This document shows, piece after piece, positions 6,496 to 49,947 of a stretch of DNA of 50,225 nucleotides. The position numbers and the translations under genes were made by a program. How positions within the stretch are numbered: the stretch's first letter is position 1; every line of letters begins with the position of its first letter. The DNA is from Hymenobacter rubripertinctus (GTDB taxonomy: Bacteria; Bacteroidota; Bacteroidia; Cytophagales; Hymenobacteraceae): positions 1-50,225 of the forward strand of contig NZ_QYCN01000004.1 in NCBI RefSeq assembly GCF_003583925.1, read 5' to 3'. The notes under the pieces are model-generated. The model was not told the origin of the DNA. It made no database searches and saw nothing but the letters and a program-made list of their open reading frames with translations.

Positions 6496-6578
6496 TGAAA
6501 TGGTGAGTTGCCATTCAGCTGGCCCTCCCAGTGCTACGTGCACCAACAGGGCTGTCCGAACGGCAACTCACCATTTCA
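6496..6578. repeat. 17-bp inverted repeat between glmM and iscS
   Basis: TGAAATGGTGAGTTGCC at 6496-6512 is repeated exactly in inverse at 6562-6578, with 49 nt between. It lies downstream of glmM and upstream of iscS on the minus strand. No T-tract follows directly, so a simple terminator is not obvious. A transcript reading through would form a long stem here. Confidence 0.75.
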
Positions 6579-37950: not shown

Positions 37951-38033
37951 CTGTCATTCTGAACGAAGCAAAGGACCTTGCAACACCGGTCAGCCAAGTG
38001 GTTCAAGGTCCTTCGCTTCGCTCAGCAGGACAG
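37951..38033. repeat. Long inverted repeat with 30-nt arms
   Basis: Left arm 37951-37980 and right arm 38004-38033 are inverted copies matching at 26 of 30 positions, with a 23-nt loop. The arms start CTGTCATTCTGA and contain CGAAGC...AAGGACCTTG. No gene is inside. It lies between the hydrolase and the methyltransferase genes and is related to the element at 45937-46055. Confidence 0.92.
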
Positions 38034-41567: not shown

Positions 41568-42464
41568 ATGGTCCAACGCGTACTTTCCTTCCTTTTTCTG
41601 GCCCTGGCTTTGCCACTGCTGAGCGTTGCTCAGGACGCCAAAATGACCGGCCGCATCGTCGATGATAAGACGAAGGAACCTATTCCGTTCGCTTCTATCG
41701 GCCTCAAGGGCGAACAGACCGGTGCCCTTACCAACGAGTATGGGTTCTTCCAGATGGCTATGCCCCAGAAGAACCCCGAGGATTCGCTCATCATCATGGC
41801 CCTGGGCTACTTCCGCAAGGCAGTACTGGTCAAGCCCGGGCTCAAGGTGCAGGACATGATTATTGAGGTGCCCAAGCGCGCCATTGCTCTGGGGGAGGTA
41901 AAAGTTCAGGGGGGCAAGGTGAAGGATCTGGCGTTGGGCTCCAAGTCGAATACCCCCGGTGAAGGCATGATTCAGGGCATGCCCGGCAGTCAGTACGCCT
42001 TCTTCGTGAAAAACGATAAGGGCAAGAACCTGGGCAATGTGCGCTCCGTGTCGTTCTACATCGGCGAAAACGGTTTCCCCCGGGAGCCGTTCCGCGTCCG
42101 CCTCTACAAGGCCGACGGCAACTACAACTCACCCAACACCGACCTGCTGACCGAGAACATCGTGGTATCGGCCCCGAAGGGCGGCGAGTGGTACACCATC
42201 GACCTGACGGAATACAACATCGAAGCGCCCAAAGAAGGCTTCTTCGTGGCCATGGAGTGGATTGTGAGCGGCGACAACTTCTACACCACCAACTTCATGG
42301 ACAACTACACGCCCTACGGCCAGATCCTGCGTCCGACCTTCGAATTCAAGGAAGCCCGGACCTGGAACTACACCATGGGCCGGGGCTGGAGCCTGATCAC
42401 GCTCGCCAACAACGGCATGCGCTACAACGCCATGATCCGGGCCGAGGTCGACCAGATCAAATAA
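41568..42464 (+). CDS. Secreted protein with carboxypeptidase-regulatory-like domain
   Basis: This is a 298-residue protein. The signal peptide ends near LLSVAQ. DAKMTGRIVDDKTKEPIPFA and GALTNEYGFFQMAMP (about 20-80) match the CarboxypepD_reg-like fold that Bacteroidota use as an N-terminal plug extension or in small surface proteins. The remainder is a beta-rich domain (VRSVSFYIGENGFPREPFRV, then FFVAMEWIVSGDNFYTTNF) without a recognised family. No TonB-dependent barrel follows. It converges on the OmpA-type lipoprotein gene through a palindrome. Confidence 0.85.
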   Translation: MVQRVLSFLFLALALPLLSVAQDAKMTGRIVDDKTKEPIPFASIGLKGEQTGALTNEYGFFQMAMPQKNPEDSLIIMALGYFRKAVLVKPGLKVQDMIIEVPKRAIALGEVKVQGGKVKDLALGSKSNTPGEGMIQGMPGSQYAFFVKNDKGKNLGNVRSVSFYIGENGFPREPFRVRLYKADGNYNSPNTDLLTENIVVSAPKGGEWYTIDLTEYNIEAPKEGFFVAMEWIVSGDNFYTTNFMDNYTPYGQILRPTFEFKEARTWNYTMGRGWSLITLANNGMRYNAMIRAEVDQIK

Positions 42465-42692
42465 ATCACAGATGGTGCAGATGCTACAGATGAAAAGGAT
42501 TCGTTTCTAAGCAGATTCGTTTTTTTAAGTGAAGCAATACATCAGCCCATAAAAAAGCAGCCTGTTTCTGTTTCCGAACAGGCTGCTTTTTTATGGGCTG
42601 ATGCGCTATGAAGTAGCTGTATGAAATTTAGTTAAGCCTTACGTCTGCACCCTTTTCATCTGCAGCATCTGCACCATCTGTGATTTATTTGA
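42457..42692. repeat. 42-bp inverted repeat enclosing a terminator and both facing stop codons
   Basis: Left arm 42457-42498 and right arm 42651-42692 are inverted copies with a single mismatch. Each arm includes the last codons and the TAA stop of the gene on its side (both end AAA TAA) and three CAGATG units. Between the arms is the 27-bp terminator stem. Confidence 0.95.
42540..42603. terminator. Bidirectional 27-bp terminator
   Basis: 42540-42566 pairs perfectly with 42577-42603 around a 10-nt loop, including AAAAAAGCAGCCTGTT and its complement. The A/T block inside the stem serves both strands. Confidence 0.92.
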
Positions 42693-43377: not shown

Positions 43378-45891
43378 CTACTCGGCCACGAATACCCGCT
43401 TCACCCGCTCACTCACATTGGTCAGCAACTCGTAGGAAATAGTACCGATGCGGGCGGCCAGGTCCGTGAGGGTCAGCCCGGCTCCGAATACAACAGCTCC
43501 GTCGCCCGCCTGGGCACCGGCAATGTGCGTGACGTCAACCATGCACATATCCATGCACACGCTGCCCACCACCGGGGCGCGCTGCCCCCGGATGAGCACC
43601 TCCCCCACCCCGTTGCCGAAGCGCCGGTCGTAGCCGTCGGCGTACCCGATGGCCAGCGTGGCGATGCGCCGGTCGTGGGCGGTGGCTTCGCCCCGGCGGC
43701 CGTAGCCCACGGTGTGGCCGGCGGGCAGGGTTTTCACCTGGGAAATGGTGGTGCGCAGGGTGCTCACGGGCCGCAGGGCATCGGGCTCCTGCCCGCTGGC
43801 GTCTACCCCGTAGAGGCCGATGCCGAGGCGCACCATGTCAGGCTGAGCCTGTGGGAAGCGCACAATGCCGGCCGTATTGAGGGCGTGCTTGAGGATGGGG
43901 TAGCCCAGGGCCCATTCCAGCAGGGGCGTCATGCGGGCGAAGGCGGCCAGCTGGCCCCGCGAAAAGGCGTCGTGGCCGGCTTCGTCGGCGCTGGCCAGGT
44001 GGGTAAGGGCGCTGGCCACGCGCAGGTGGGCGGCGTTGGCGTGCAGCAACGCCCCCAACTCGGGCACGTCTTCCTCCCCGAAGCCCAGGCGGCGCATGCC
44101 GGTATCGAGCTTGAGGTGAACGGGCGGCATGGCGGCGCGGCGGGCGGCGGCCAGGTAGTCGTGGAGGCGCTCGAAGGAGTAGATTTCCGGCTCCAGGTGG
44201 TACTGGCGCAGCACCTCGAAGGAGTCGGGGGCCGGGTTCATCACCATAATGGGCAGGCTGATGCCGTGCTGGCGCAGGTCCACGCCCTCGTCGGCGTAGG
44301 CCACGGCCAGGTAATCGACGCGGTGAAACTGGAGCAGGTTGGCTACTTCGGCCGAGCCGCTGCCGTAGGCGAAGGCCTTCACCATCACCATCAGCTTCAC
44401 GCCGGGCAGCAGGCGGCGGCGGTAAAAGTTGAGGTTGTGCACCAGCGCATCCAGGTTCACTTCCAGCACCGTGCCGTGAATTTTCTGCTGAAATGCCGCC
44501 ACAATCCGCTCGAAGCCGTAGCGGCGGGCTCCCTTCACCAGCAGCAGCTCCTGGCGGAACTGCTCGGGCCGGAAAGCTGCCAGGAAAGCTTCCGTATCGG
44601 GATAGAACGCCGTTTCCAGCCCCGCGAATACGTCCTGGTGGCCGCTGATTTCGGGGCCGATGCCGATCAGGCGGACCACGCCGGCGGCGGGCAGCAGGGC
44701 CGCCACCCGGGCGTAGAGCTCGGCCCCGCCCAGGCCCGATTCGAGCACGTCGGAGAGGATGAGGGTGCGGCGCAGGCGGCGGGTCTGACGGGCCAGGGCA
44801 TCGAGGGCGAGGCGCAGACCGGCCAGGTCGTTGTTGTAGGTGTCGTCGAGGACGTAGCAGTCGTGTAGGGCCTGTTTCATTTCCAGGCGCATGGCCACGG
44901 GCTGGAGCCGGTCGAGGCGGCGCTGGATTTCGGCGGGCTCCACCTGCCGCCAGAGTAGCACCACGAGACCGTGGAGGGCGTTTTCCACCGAGGGCGCATC
45001 GGCAAACGGCAGGGTGAAGGTGTATTCCTCGGGTTGCGGATGGGCCTGCTCCACGCGCACCACGGTGCGGTCGGCGGAGGCTTCTTCGCCCCGCACGAGC
45101 CAGTGGGCCTCGCCGGCGGCGTAGCGGCGGGTTTCGCGGGTCCAGGCTGCCAGGCGGGTCCGCGCGGGGCGGAGCTGACGGCAGGCGGCGGCGTGAATCA
45201 GGGCGTGGTCGGCGCAGTAGAACAGGGTGTCCACTTCCTCGAAGAGCCGCATTTTCTCCGCCACCTTTTCTTCGGGGGAGGCAAACCCGGCGTCGTGGGC
45301 GGTGCCCAGGTTGGTAAACAGGCCCAGCGTGGGCTGAATGACGCGGGCCAGACGGGCCATTTCGCCGGGCTCCGAAATGCCAGCCTCAAAAATGCCGAGC
45401 GTGTGCTGAGCGGTGAGCTCCCACACGCTCAGGGGCACGCCCACCTGGGAATTATAGGAGCGTGGGCTCTTGCAAATCAGCTCATCGGGGCTCAACAGTT
45501 GGGCCAGCCACTCCTTCACGATGGTTTTGCCATTCGAGCCCGTGATGCCGAACACGGGCAGCTTGAACCGCTGCCGGTGGTGGGCCGCCAGCGTTTGCAG
45601 GGCCGCCAGCGCCTCGGGCACCACCACGAACCCCGCCGCCGGGTAAGCCGCGAGGCCGCCGGGCAGCTCCGCCCCGGCTTCCACCACAAACTGCCGCACC
45701 CCGGCCCGGTACAGCTCGGGCAGATAGCGGTGACCGTCGTGCTGAGGGCCGCGCAACGCAAAAAACAGGCTGTCGGCCGGCGTTTCGATGCGGCGGCTGT
45801 CCAGCAGCAGGCGCTGGATGGGCGGGGCGGCGGCCGGGAGTTGCAGCAGGGAGCCCCCGGTGAGGGCGGGCAGGTCGGGGAACTGAAGCAT
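43378..45891 (-). CDS. murF-alr: Fused MurF ligase and alanine racemase
   Basis: This is an 837-residue bifunctional enzyme from the ATG at 45891; a TTG two codons upstream is less likely. The N-terminal half is MurF (UDP-MurNAc-tripeptide:D-Ala-D-Ala ligase): ITGSNGKTIVKE with the P-loop at 116-123, and LDDTYNNDLAGLRLALDALA. The C-terminal half (about 466-837) is alanine racemase: VMVKAFAYGSG with the PLP lysine, LDTGMRRLGF, a VGYGRRGEA segment and GSVCMDMCMVDVT. The two activities make D-Ala and attach D-Ala-D-Ala. Such fusions are common in Bacteroidota. Confidence 0.94.
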   Translation of the reverse strand: MLQFPDLPALTGGSLLQLPAAAPPIQRLLLDSRRIETPADSLFFALRGPQHDGHRYLPELYRAGVRQFVVEAGAELPGGLAAYPAAGFVVVPEALAALQTLAAHHRQRFKLPVFGITGSNGKTIVKEWLAQLLSPDELICKSPRSYNSQVGVPLSVWELTAQHTLGIFEAGISEPGEMARLARVIQPTLGLFTNLGTAHDAGFASPEEKVAEKMRLFEEVDTLFYCADHALIHAAACRQLRPARTRLAAWTRETRRYAAGEAHWLVRGEEASADRTVVRVEQAHPQPEEYTFTLPFADAPSVENALHGLVVLLWRQVEPAEIQRRLDRLQPVAMRLEMKQALHDCYVLDDTYNNDLAGLRLALDALARQTRRLRRTLILSDVLESGLGGAELYARVAALLPAAGVVRLIGIGPEISGHQDVFAGLETAFYPDTEAFLAAFRPEQFRQELLLVKGARRYGFERIVAAFQQKIHGTVLEVNLDALVHNLNFYRRRLLPGVKLMVMVKAFAYGSGSAEVANLLQFHRVDYLAVAYADEGVDLRQHGISLPIMVMNPAPDSFEVLRQYHLEPEIYSFERLHDYLAAARRAAMPPVHLKLDTGMRRLGFGEEDVPELGALLHANAAHLRVASALTHLASADEAGHDAFSRGQLAAFARMTPLLEWALGYPILKHALNTAGIVRFPQAQPDMVRLGIGLYGVDASGQEPDALRPVSTLRTTISQVKTLPAGHTVGYGRRGEATAHDRRIATLAIGYADGYDRRFGNGVGEVLIRGQRAPVVGSVCMDMCMVDVTHIAGAQAGDGAVVFGAGLTLTDLAARIGTISYELLTNVSERVKRVFVAE

Positions 45892-45894
45892 GGG

Positions 45895-45902
45895 CAAAGG
45901 TA
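45895..45902 (-). promoter_or_regulatory. -7 promoter box of murF-alr
   Basis: On the minus strand TACCTTTG, three bases before the ATG at 45891. The 16-nt segment around it is repeated in inverse at the rarD promoter. Confidence 0.65.
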
Positions 45903-45908
45903 GCGCGG

Positions 45909-45936
45909 GTTGGTGGTTGGTGGTTGGTGGTTGTTA
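45909..45936. repeat. Heptamer GTTGGTG, three copies plus a degenerate fourth
   Basis: GTTGGTG at 45909, 45916 and 45923, then GTTGTTA at 45930. It lies in the left flank of the 38-bp palindrome; the right flank carries complementary CCAACC-type repeats (46054-46104). Confidence 0.85.
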
Positions 45937-46055
45937 GGAGAAGAACTGTCATCCTGAGCGAAGCGAAGGACCTTATTACGCTGGAATGGCCGTACCAACG
46001 ACTCGTGCTCACGTGACAAGGTCCTTCGCTTCGCTCAGGATGACAGTTCTTCTCC
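45937..46055. repeat. Perfect 38-bp inverted repeat
   Basis: Left arm 45937-45974 and right arm 46018-46055 are exact inverted copies with a 43-nt loop. The arm contains ACTGTCATCCTGAGCGAAGC. It is flanked on both sides by further complementary repeats, and the whole intergenic region forms a nested palindrome. Confidence 0.97.
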
Positions 46056-46112
46056 CAACCAAGCAACCAACCAACCAACCCACCACCAACCCACCACCAA
46101 CCCGCCCCGCGC

Positions 46113-46120
46113 TACCTTTG
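46113..46120 (+). promoter_or_regulatory. -7 promoter box of the EamA/RarD gene
   Basis: TACCTTTG, six bases before the ATG at 46127. Together with its flank (46106-46121) it is the inverse of the murF-alr promoter segment. Confidence 0.65.
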
Positions 46121-46126
46121 CGGCCC

Positions 46127-47071
46127 ATGAAACTTTCGCGTCATCATCTGGCGGCCCTGGCAGCCTTCGTCATCTGGGGGTTCTTCCCGATTCCGCTGCG
46201 CTGGCTGGCCGGGTACGCCAGCGGCCAGATTCTGCTGTTCCGGGTGCTGATTTCCCTGCTGCTGCTGCTGCTGCTGCTCCTGCACGCGGTAGCCCGGCGG
46301 GCTACCGTGCGGGCAGCCTGGGCTAAATGGCGCGCCGCCCCCCGCCCCGAACGGCGGCAGGTGGTGCTCTGGACGCTGCTGGGCGGGGTGCTGCTGACCG
46401 CCAACTGGCTGCTGTTCATCTACGTGGTGAACCAGGTGAGCGTGCAGGCGGGCTCGTTCGCCTACCTCATCTGCCCCATCCTCACGGCCCTGCTGGGCTT
46501 CGTGGTGCTAGGCGAAAAGCTGCGGCCCAACCAGTGGCTGGCCATCGGGCTGAGCGCGCTGAGCTGCACGCTGCTGGGTTCCGGCGGCGGCCGGGCGCTG
46601 GTGCTGAGCCTGGTAGTAGCCTTCACCTACGCCGCCTACCTCATCAGCCAGCGCCGCCTCCAGGGCTACGACCGGCTGGTGCTCCTGACCGTGCAACTCA
46701 CCCTGGCGGCCCTGCTGATTGTGCCGCTGGCCGGCCGCCTGGGCGCCCAGCCCCTGGCCGGGCTGCACGATGCCCGCCTGCTGGCCGTAGCGGCCCTGCT
46801 GAGCGTGGCTTTTACGGTGGTACCGCTGTTTCTGAACCTGTACGCCCTCAACGCCCTGCCCTCGGGCACGGTGGGCATCTTCATGTACATCAACCCGCTG
46901 CTGAGCTTTTTGCTGGCCTTTCTGTACTTCGGGGAACGCGCTACCGGGATGCAGCTCACGGCCTACGGACTGATTTTCCTCTCGATTGGCCTCTATAATT
47001 TCCGGCCGGCGCGGCCGCAACTGCCGGGGCCGGTGGGCGGCGTGGGCGAGCCGCCCACCGCGCTTAGTTGA
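46127..47071 (+). CDS. EamA/RarD-family transporter
   Basis: This is a 314-residue protein starting at the ATG at 46127, next to its promoter box. Ten membrane helices are visible in two EamA repeats: LAALAAFVIWGFFPIPLRWL opens the first, and GVLLTANWLLFIYVVNQVSV then AFTYAAYLISQRRLQGYDR follow. INPLLSFLLAFLYFGERATG closes the second. The N-terminus FVIWGFFPI and the fold fit the RarD type, chloramphenicol-sensitive in name only. The exported metabolite is unknown. It is divergent from murF-alr. Confidence 0.87.
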   Translation: MKLSRHHLAALAAFVIWGFFPIPLRWLAGYASGQILLFRVLISLLLLLLLLLHAVARRATVRAAWAKWRAAPRPERRQVVLWTLLGGVLLTANWLLFIYVVNQVSVQAGSFAYLICPILTALLGFVVLGEKLRPNQWLAIGLSALSCTLLGSGGGRALVLSLVVAFTYAAYLISQRRLQGYDRLVLLTVQLTLAALLIVPLAGRLGAQPLAGLHDARLLAVAALLSVAFTVVPLFLNLYALNALPSGTVGIFMYINPLLSFLLAFLYFGERATGMQLTAYGLIFLSIGLYNFRPARPQLPGPVGGVGEPPTALS

Positions 47072-49776: not shown

Positions 49777-49947
49777 CTGTCATTCCGACGAAGGAGGAAT
49801 CTGGGGCAGACTGTGAATAGCATTAGGCAGAGGACTTACACCAAAGCGGGTAGCAGTCATTTCACACCCTATTTCAGAGTGGGAATAGAATGGTGTAAGT
49901 CATTGAGCAATAAATTAGGCCGGATTCCTCCTTCGTCGGAATGACAG
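49777..49947. repeat. Nested palindrome with 25-bp perfect outer arms
   Basis: Outer arms 49777-49801 and 49923-49947 are exact inverted copies (CTGTCATTCCGACGAAGG...). Inside, GACTTACACCA (49833-49843) pairs with TGGTGTAAGTC (49891-49901), and a CTATTTC/GGAATAG stem sits at the centre. The right outer arm contains the ATG of the next gene. Confidence 0.95.

Follow-up and report, generated by a model that had tools for sequence, protein, structure and literature searches.

Locus-specific mirrored flanks around intergenic palindromes in Hymenobacter and their possible origin by template switching at a dispersed repeat

Background

The intergenic region that separates the divergent genes murF-alr and rarD of Hymenobacter rubripertinctus forms a nested palindrome, at whose core two copies of a dispersed REP-like element, here termed REP1, stand head to head. 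Comparison of the sequences suggests that its outer arms were probably made mirror images of each other in place, by arm-to-arm copying through template switching at the hairpin. What is new in this work is that locus-specific flanks mirror each other at many loci in two genomes, and that the arms change jointly between sister species. The two genomes are that of H. rubripertinctus (G000) and that of its sister H. piscis NST-14 (G054), the closest relative found; other G numbers denote further Hymenobacter genomes. The window is the whole stretch of 50,225 nucleotides that was analysed, and positions refer to it.

Hairpins created and maintained by template switching, with paired multi-base changes, are described by Monttinen and Loytynoja (2022, PMC8794818). 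For short dispersed palindromes, the description of CGTC-tagged REPs by Di Nocera et al. (2013, PMC3733652) provides a point of comparison: these elements occur mostly as head-to-head dimers, their CGTC end is often changed to TGTC or CCTC, the stem is 8-9 bp with the first two pairs almost always AT, the loop is 4-5 nt and the short tail is mostly CCA. Four families are distinguished there, with no flanking RAYT gene and with flanking DNA called diverse. Direct repeats of the heptamer TAACTGA are described from Beggiatoaceae, Cyanobacteria and five Bacteroidetes (MacGregor 2015, PMC4679880).

Results

The nested palindrome between murF-alr and rarD

The locus comprises the following features, given as coordinates, strand where there is one, and description.

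43378..45891, minus strand: murF-alr fusion gene, ATG at 45891, matches to the Mur_ligase_M, Ala_racemase_N and Ala_racemase_C domains
45894..45909: outer left arm GCAAAGGTAGCGCGGG, 16 bp, a perfect match to the outer right arm
45895..45902, minus strand: TACCTTTG box on the murF-alr side, 3 nt before the murF-alr ATG
45908..45935: left GTTGG-type tandem tract, a locus-specific mirrored arm
45937..45974: left perfect 38-bp arm, which includes the REP1 core and 12 nt beyond the core
45949..45970, plus strand: left REP1 core TCATCCTGAGCGAAGCGAAGGA
45975..46017: spacer of the head-to-head REP1 pair, its ends partly complementary
46018..46055: right perfect 38-bp arm, pairing with 45937..45974
46022..46043, minus strand: right REP1 core, reverse complement of TCATCCTGAGCGAAGCGAAGGA
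46055..46104: right CCAAC-type tandem tract, gapped inverted counterpart of the left GTTGG-type tract
46106..46121: outer right arm, exact reverse complement of GCAAAGGTAGCGCGGG
46113..46120, plus strand: TACCTTTG box on the rarD side, 6 nt before the rarD ATG
46127..47071, plus strand: rarD-like EamA transporter gene, ATG at 46127, EamA domain match of 95.3 bits

The name rarD comes from a sequence-only reading of this DNA, which had described the whole region at 45894-46121 as one nested palindrome. The palindrome is real and its nested inverted repeats agree with the description in that reading, including the exact inverse recurrence of the 16-bp outer arm, a TACCTTTG box in each outer arm and the perfect 38-bp inverted repeat. 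We take the TACCTTTG boxes to be -7 promoter boxes. The GTTGG repeats said to face CCAAC repeats are likewise present, with 88% complementarity between 45905-45930 and 46080-46105, but the arms are unequal and their alignment needs gaps. The inner arms (45933-45980 and 46012-46059) are 94% complementary and enclose the perfect 38-bp pair. Folded as single-stranded DNA, the region reaches -92.9 kcal/mol, whereas shuffled sequences average -31.85 (sd 3.46).

The mirrored arms extend as far as both boxes. The box plus one base makes up 9 of the 16 outer-arm bases, and facing boxes or close variants are present in every aligned version of this gap, so that only about 7 bases represent extra symmetry. 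In the sister genome, exact inverted 16-mers at this span are no rarity (337 pairs in 2.0 Mb, every position counted).

The facing promoters across Hymenobacter

The gap was aligned in 49 versions, the window's own (L073) included, from 50 loci (L073-L122); L093 was excluded because the murF match is absent from its stretch. Both facing boxes occur in 49 of 49 versions under a pattern that admits TACCTTTG and close variants and was chosen after the sequences had been inspected, and both sides read exactly TACCTTTG in 31. Among the 49 aligned versions, only that of G000 contains a REP1 pair. It follows that the two promoters are not copies of each other, and in the alignment the facing predicted promoters predate the REP1 pair. 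The suggestion that the promoters had been mirrored through inverted duplication is consequently not supported. Shared regulation of murF-alr and rarD, which in the sequence-only reading would be forced by the mirrored promoters, is a conjecture.

Inverted duplication of one promoter into two is indeed hardly credible, even though two features of G000 and G054 are of the kind it would produce. Upstream of the boxes there are 7 matching bases in G000 and 9 in G054, against a cross-locus mean of 0.8 (the own-locus mean over all 49 versions is 1.3), and the distance from the rarD box to the aligned start falls to 6 nt in these two genomes only, compared with 17-32 nt in the other 47. Apart from the boxes common to all versions, the bases that follow the rarD box speak against duplication. 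These are CGGC in G000, which is the commonest reading on the rarD side (15/49) and is found on none of the 49 murF sides, and we therefore read the short leader as a deletion and not as a copied promoter; G054 reads CGAGG at this point. Loss of about 21 nt from the rarD leader explains the 6-nt distance. The aligned rarD start is TTG or GTG in many of the other 47 versions, and both murF-alr and rarD may be leaderless.

The motif TTG at -33, presumably a promoter element, was found at a spacing of 17-23 on only 2 murF sides and 5 rarD sides, out of 49 each. We rejected the idea that the palindrome had erased this element, as these counts leave little to lose.

Independent promoters with unrelated flanks, which the sequence-only reading had named as counter-evidence to its proposal, are what most relatives possess; the sister G054, however, carries a similar outer mirror (GCAAAGGTAGCGCGGGGC, at least 18 bp) and GTTGG-type mirrored tracts around a different REP family (TCATTCCGAGCG...) at the same place. 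An inverted match that none of 100 shuffles reached was found in 8 of the 44 gap intervals long enough for testing, and the clearest mirrored gaps include those of G000, G054, G021 and G041. The G110 gap has mirrored tracts of another unit, at a level reached by 1 of 100 shuffles.

REP1, the dispersed element at the core

In G000, a search at up to 2 mismatches finds 54 copies of the 22-mer REP1 core in each orientation, and none for the reversed control. At the loci around the matches listed for these copies, at least 49 head-to-head pairs are formed by cores with up to 5 mismatches (an early count of 50 became 49 when the scanning core was altered), and the spacers measure 32-68 bp among the pairs listed. 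As a degenerate exact pattern, REP1 is present in 84 of 120 Hymenobacter genomes. The G000 consensus reads aaaagaactg beyond the core, and ccttatcacg is the consensus 3' of it. The 40-nt stretch left of the REP1 pair is richer in G+T than the right one at 38 of 49 loci (including L001, L003 and L013), so that the arms of REP1 pairs are G/T-rich at 5' and A/C-rich at 3'. The window contains another, more divergent REP1 pair at 37954-38030, and its G054 ortholog appears by eye to be a shorter, different hairpin.

The G000 genome has two Y1_Tnp matches. Allowing up to 6 mismatches, neither has a REP1 core within about 1.5 kb; on C71, a REP1 pair is about 2.2 kb distant. A RAYT as the mover of REP1 was rejected, neither match having an adjacent core.

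Mirrored flanks around REP1 pairs

The left flank of each REP1 pair was compared with the reverse complement of its own right flank and scored against mismatched loci, with the 99th percentile as threshold. The own-locus score in G000 is 13.7, against 6.3 for mismatched loci, and 20 of 49 pairs exceed the threshold; the corresponding values are 15.1 against 6.4 (23/73) in G054 and 13.9 against 6.6 (3/16) in G003. Identity over the 10 nt outside the core is 0.78 in G000, where the permutation maximum is 0.55, and 0.72 in G054, where it is 0.51. Outside the core, the two arms share a non-consensus base 116 times in G000 (permutation mean 36, maximum 57) and 184 times in G054 (mean 70, maximum 97).

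Little or no mirroring surrounds the REP1 pairs of G012 (2/22 above the 99th percentile), G110 (1/15), G091 (0/18) and G038 (1/20). The repeat alone is thus not the cause, and REP1 pairs as a sufficient cause of mirrored flanks were rejected on the evidence of these four genomes. Strong in some genomes and near absent in others, the trait is lineage-dependent.

This distribution also bears on whether short-read assembly, or library fold-back at hairpins, has produced the mirror arms as an artefact. With read type judged from contig number only, the mirroring genomes G000 (146 contigs), G054 (60) and G003 (60) differ from G012, G110, G091 and G038 (1-4 contigs) as an artefact would predict. Long arms are found in few-contig assemblies too: at another locus the one-contig G048 carries paired arms of 57 nt with a single mismatch, G061 (5 contigs) has a perfect 35-nt arm pair, and mirrored GGTGAAATGGTGAG arms are also present in G005, G014, G109 and G110 (3-4 contigs). 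An artefact, which the sequence-only reading had named as a way in which its palindrome might fall, is weakened by the G048 arm pair in particular and we regard it as very improbable.

The mirrored units differ from locus to locus in G000 and G054 (GTTGTCA, GTGAATGA, GTGAGAA, AGCTAAC, GTTGG and others). As exact matches in about 2.0 of the 4.9 Mb of G054, 5 of 6 mirrored arms or inserts tested are confined to a single palindrome, their own; when up to 2 mismatches are allowed in the same sequence, there are 9 matches to the L063 arm and 3 to the L067 arm. Two mirrored tract types were found by pattern search in 30 of 120 genomes (GGTGAAATGGTGAG arms) and in 7 of 120 (some matches overlapping within one tract), with reversed controls at 0.

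This recurrence of the GGTGAAATGGTGAG arms, with related centres among the matches listed, the dispersal of REP1 pairs and the core variants common to both arms are in keeping with a mobile unit comprising the entire palindrome, inserted with its arms. The confinement of most tested arms to one palindrome, as exact matches, is not, and among the matches listed the 228-bp stretch was matched mostly over the repeat pair, at about its positions 48-158. As the REP1 pair is also in none of the other aligned gap versions, insertion as one unit is distinctly improbable.

Further palindromes were noted in the window. At 42457-42692, a REP-less palindrome with arms TCAAATAAATCACAGATG... lies between convergent genes, and the G054 region that matches it by coordinates (L133:4840-5025) has the same outer TCAAATAAATCAC arms around inner tracts that are different yet mirrored. 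An inverted pair of another REP family (TCATTCCGACGAAGGAGGAATCT) is located at 49777-49947. The palindrome at 6496-6578 has TGAAATGGTGAGTTG arms, to which the GGTGAAATGGTGAG arms are similar.

Joint change of arms between sister species

A G054 ortholog that carries both gene flanks was available for 24 of the 49 G000 pairs (about 2.0 Mb of G054); this is a non-random sample, in which some G054 stretches were placed around G054 REP1 matches. A scan detected the REP1 pair in both genomes at 12 of the 24 orthologous loci. By eye, both arms of the REP1 pair in the L053 ortholog carry an insert, the L030 and L041 orthologs have no palindrome, and other orthologs, such as those of L045, L064, L066, L069 and L039, have palindromes that are unrelated, partial or shortened; at the first four of these, the sister has an unrelated palindrome at the same place. 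The L001 ortholog carries another REP family. The L039 ortholog (L244), CCAGAACGGTCATCCTGAGCGGAGCGAAGCATGACCGTTCTGG, is a collapsed palindrome that looks like a REP1 pair without its centre.

Fourteen loci with a REP pair anchored in both genomes were compared, 12 by scan and L053 and L001 by hand. Within 10 nt outside the core, 19 columns at 7 loci changed in concert in both arms, against 3 at 2 loci that followed orthology; 22 columns were single changes, 7 multiple and 89 unchanged. L063 contributes 6 of the 19 concerted columns, and there a 2-nt shift in both arms inflates the ungapped count. Concerted change is exemplified by L024, with arms ATGTCGGG/CCCGACAT against ATGCCGGG/CCCGGCAT, and further by L057, L063 and L067, the arms of the last two being replaced on both sides. 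Paired multi-base changes in both arms between relatives, such as template switching is described to produce, are therefore found at these loci.

Wider comparisons speak against this. Over 25 nt at the 14 loci, within-genome similarity (15.5) is not significantly greater than between-genome similarity (12.6; Wilcoxon p = 0.11), and over 50-nt flanks at 12 loci, coding sequence included, orthologous columns (57) outnumber concerted ones (27).

In the 2.0 Mb of G054, the L053-ortholog insert has 6 occurrences, distributed over both strands and consistent with three palindromes. Some dimers thus spread as units, which makes agreement inside the core weaker evidence. Its presence in both REP arms had been considered as proof of conversion and was dropped, as the insert is found elsewhere too.

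Gene context and selection on transcripts

The main rival to template switching is selection on transcripts that keeps the arms complementary through compensatory mutations, the palindromes serving as bidirectional terminators or RNA-stabilising hairpins. Crude frame calls place 22 of the 49 G000 REP1 pairs between convergent genes, 22 between co-directional and 3 between divergent genes, with 2 uncalled, and the strand exiting the hairpin reads cagttctttt in the G000 consensus. A survey of 2.05 Mb, mostly from G054, yielded 366 intergenic palindromes with a score cut-off of our own choosing and a home-made ORF caller. Those without a REP label and with called context number 77 convergent, 111 co-directional and 27 divergent, against 233, 493 and 198 among all gaps of at least 60 bp; the REP labels are short strings, and some REP-bearing palindromes are classed with the others. 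Selection for RNA hairpins or terminators may act on the many REP1 copies between convergent genes.

Several observations fit this explanation poorly. The palindrome at 45894-46121 is divergent, and a terminator there is needless for either gene. REP1 pairs are not depleted in divergent gaps of the surveyed sequence, which hold 11 of the 50 pairs whose context was called; the crude G000 calls, however, give only 3 of 49. The mirrored tandem tracts at one locus are unlike between sister species. Arms of 40-60 nt are, moreover, far longer than termination requires. As the general explanation of the arms, selection on transcripts is in our judgement rather unlikely, and it suits this divergent locus poorly.

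Discussion

Template switching would act here through a series of steps. The REP1 pair, situated between older facing predicted promoters, would form a hairpin or cruciform at the replication fork; the replicating strand would switch template across the hairpin and write one flank onto the other side; repeated switching would correct and lengthen the arms, and their growth would halt where changes hit a gene. Such a process explains the locus-specific arms, their joint change, the persistence of symmetry despite sequence turnover and the inverted tandem tracts. The idea of gene conversion put forward in the sequence-only reading survives in part: copying between arms fits the data at this locus and at many loci of two genomes, but not as the source of the promoters.

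Compared with REPINs, which are inverted REP pairs that form dispersed units, REP1 pairs are alike in their arrangement. REPIN/RAYT systems have a GTAG-type tag and a RAYT neighbourhood, neither of which was found for REP1.

The CGTC-tagged REPs share more with REP1 in their published description (PMC3733652), both being short palindromic intergenic elements in head-to-head pairs, some with spacers that have complementary ends, and both without a flanking RAYT. An end of the CGTC/TGTC type is present in REP1, reading TGTCATCC in the window copy and CGTCATCC in other copies, and the pairs counted above are head-to-head dimers. The stem, loop and tail, compared by description, fall outside the four CGTC families of that account: ATCCT pairs with AGGAT only in copies that end in GGATC, while the window copy ends in GGACC; the interior GAGCGAAGCGA is not a loop of 4-5 nt; and the core is followed by its own consensus in place of a CCA tail. 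Locus-specific mirrored flanks outside the pair are seen here and do not figure in the description given for CGTC-tagged REPs (PMC3733652).

The hairpins attributed to template switching in PMC8794818 resemble ours, as we interpret them, in that reverse-complement copying extends stems and alters several paired bases together. That account concerns RNA genes, whereas in the present case the DNA is intergenic, the loci number dozens in two genomes and involve dispersed repeats and tandem tracts, and the arms reach up to promoter-like boxes. The TAACTGA tracts, as described in PMC4679880, are likewise intergenic tandem heptamer tracts that include some Bacteroidetes; they consist of one heptamer, nearly always in direct orientation, whereas many units occur here and are inverted across a hairpin. 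In the open-licence literature, we found no work on bacterial inverted repeats with template switching or on intergenic palindromic repeats of Hymenobacter.

We tentatively propose a wider reading, which we hold to be possible although short of probable, that in some Hymenobacter lineages each intergenic hairpin is a copying device that continually writes one flank, inverted, onto the other. Palindromes would then grow outward, swap sequence between species while keeping symmetry, and in the end overwrite the edges of promoters, with the sequence itself being disposable and the symmetry alone inherited. If template switching is indeed at work, it has left a natural record in these genomes, with palindrome arms renewed together between close species at dozens of loci, and the rate, tract length and limits of template switching would become measurable outside a reporter gene. 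Arm covariation, which is commonly taken to prove a functional RNA stem, could then come from copying alone, and palindrome growth could extend to promoters. Many other REP1 copies, lying between convergent genes, could also end transcription.
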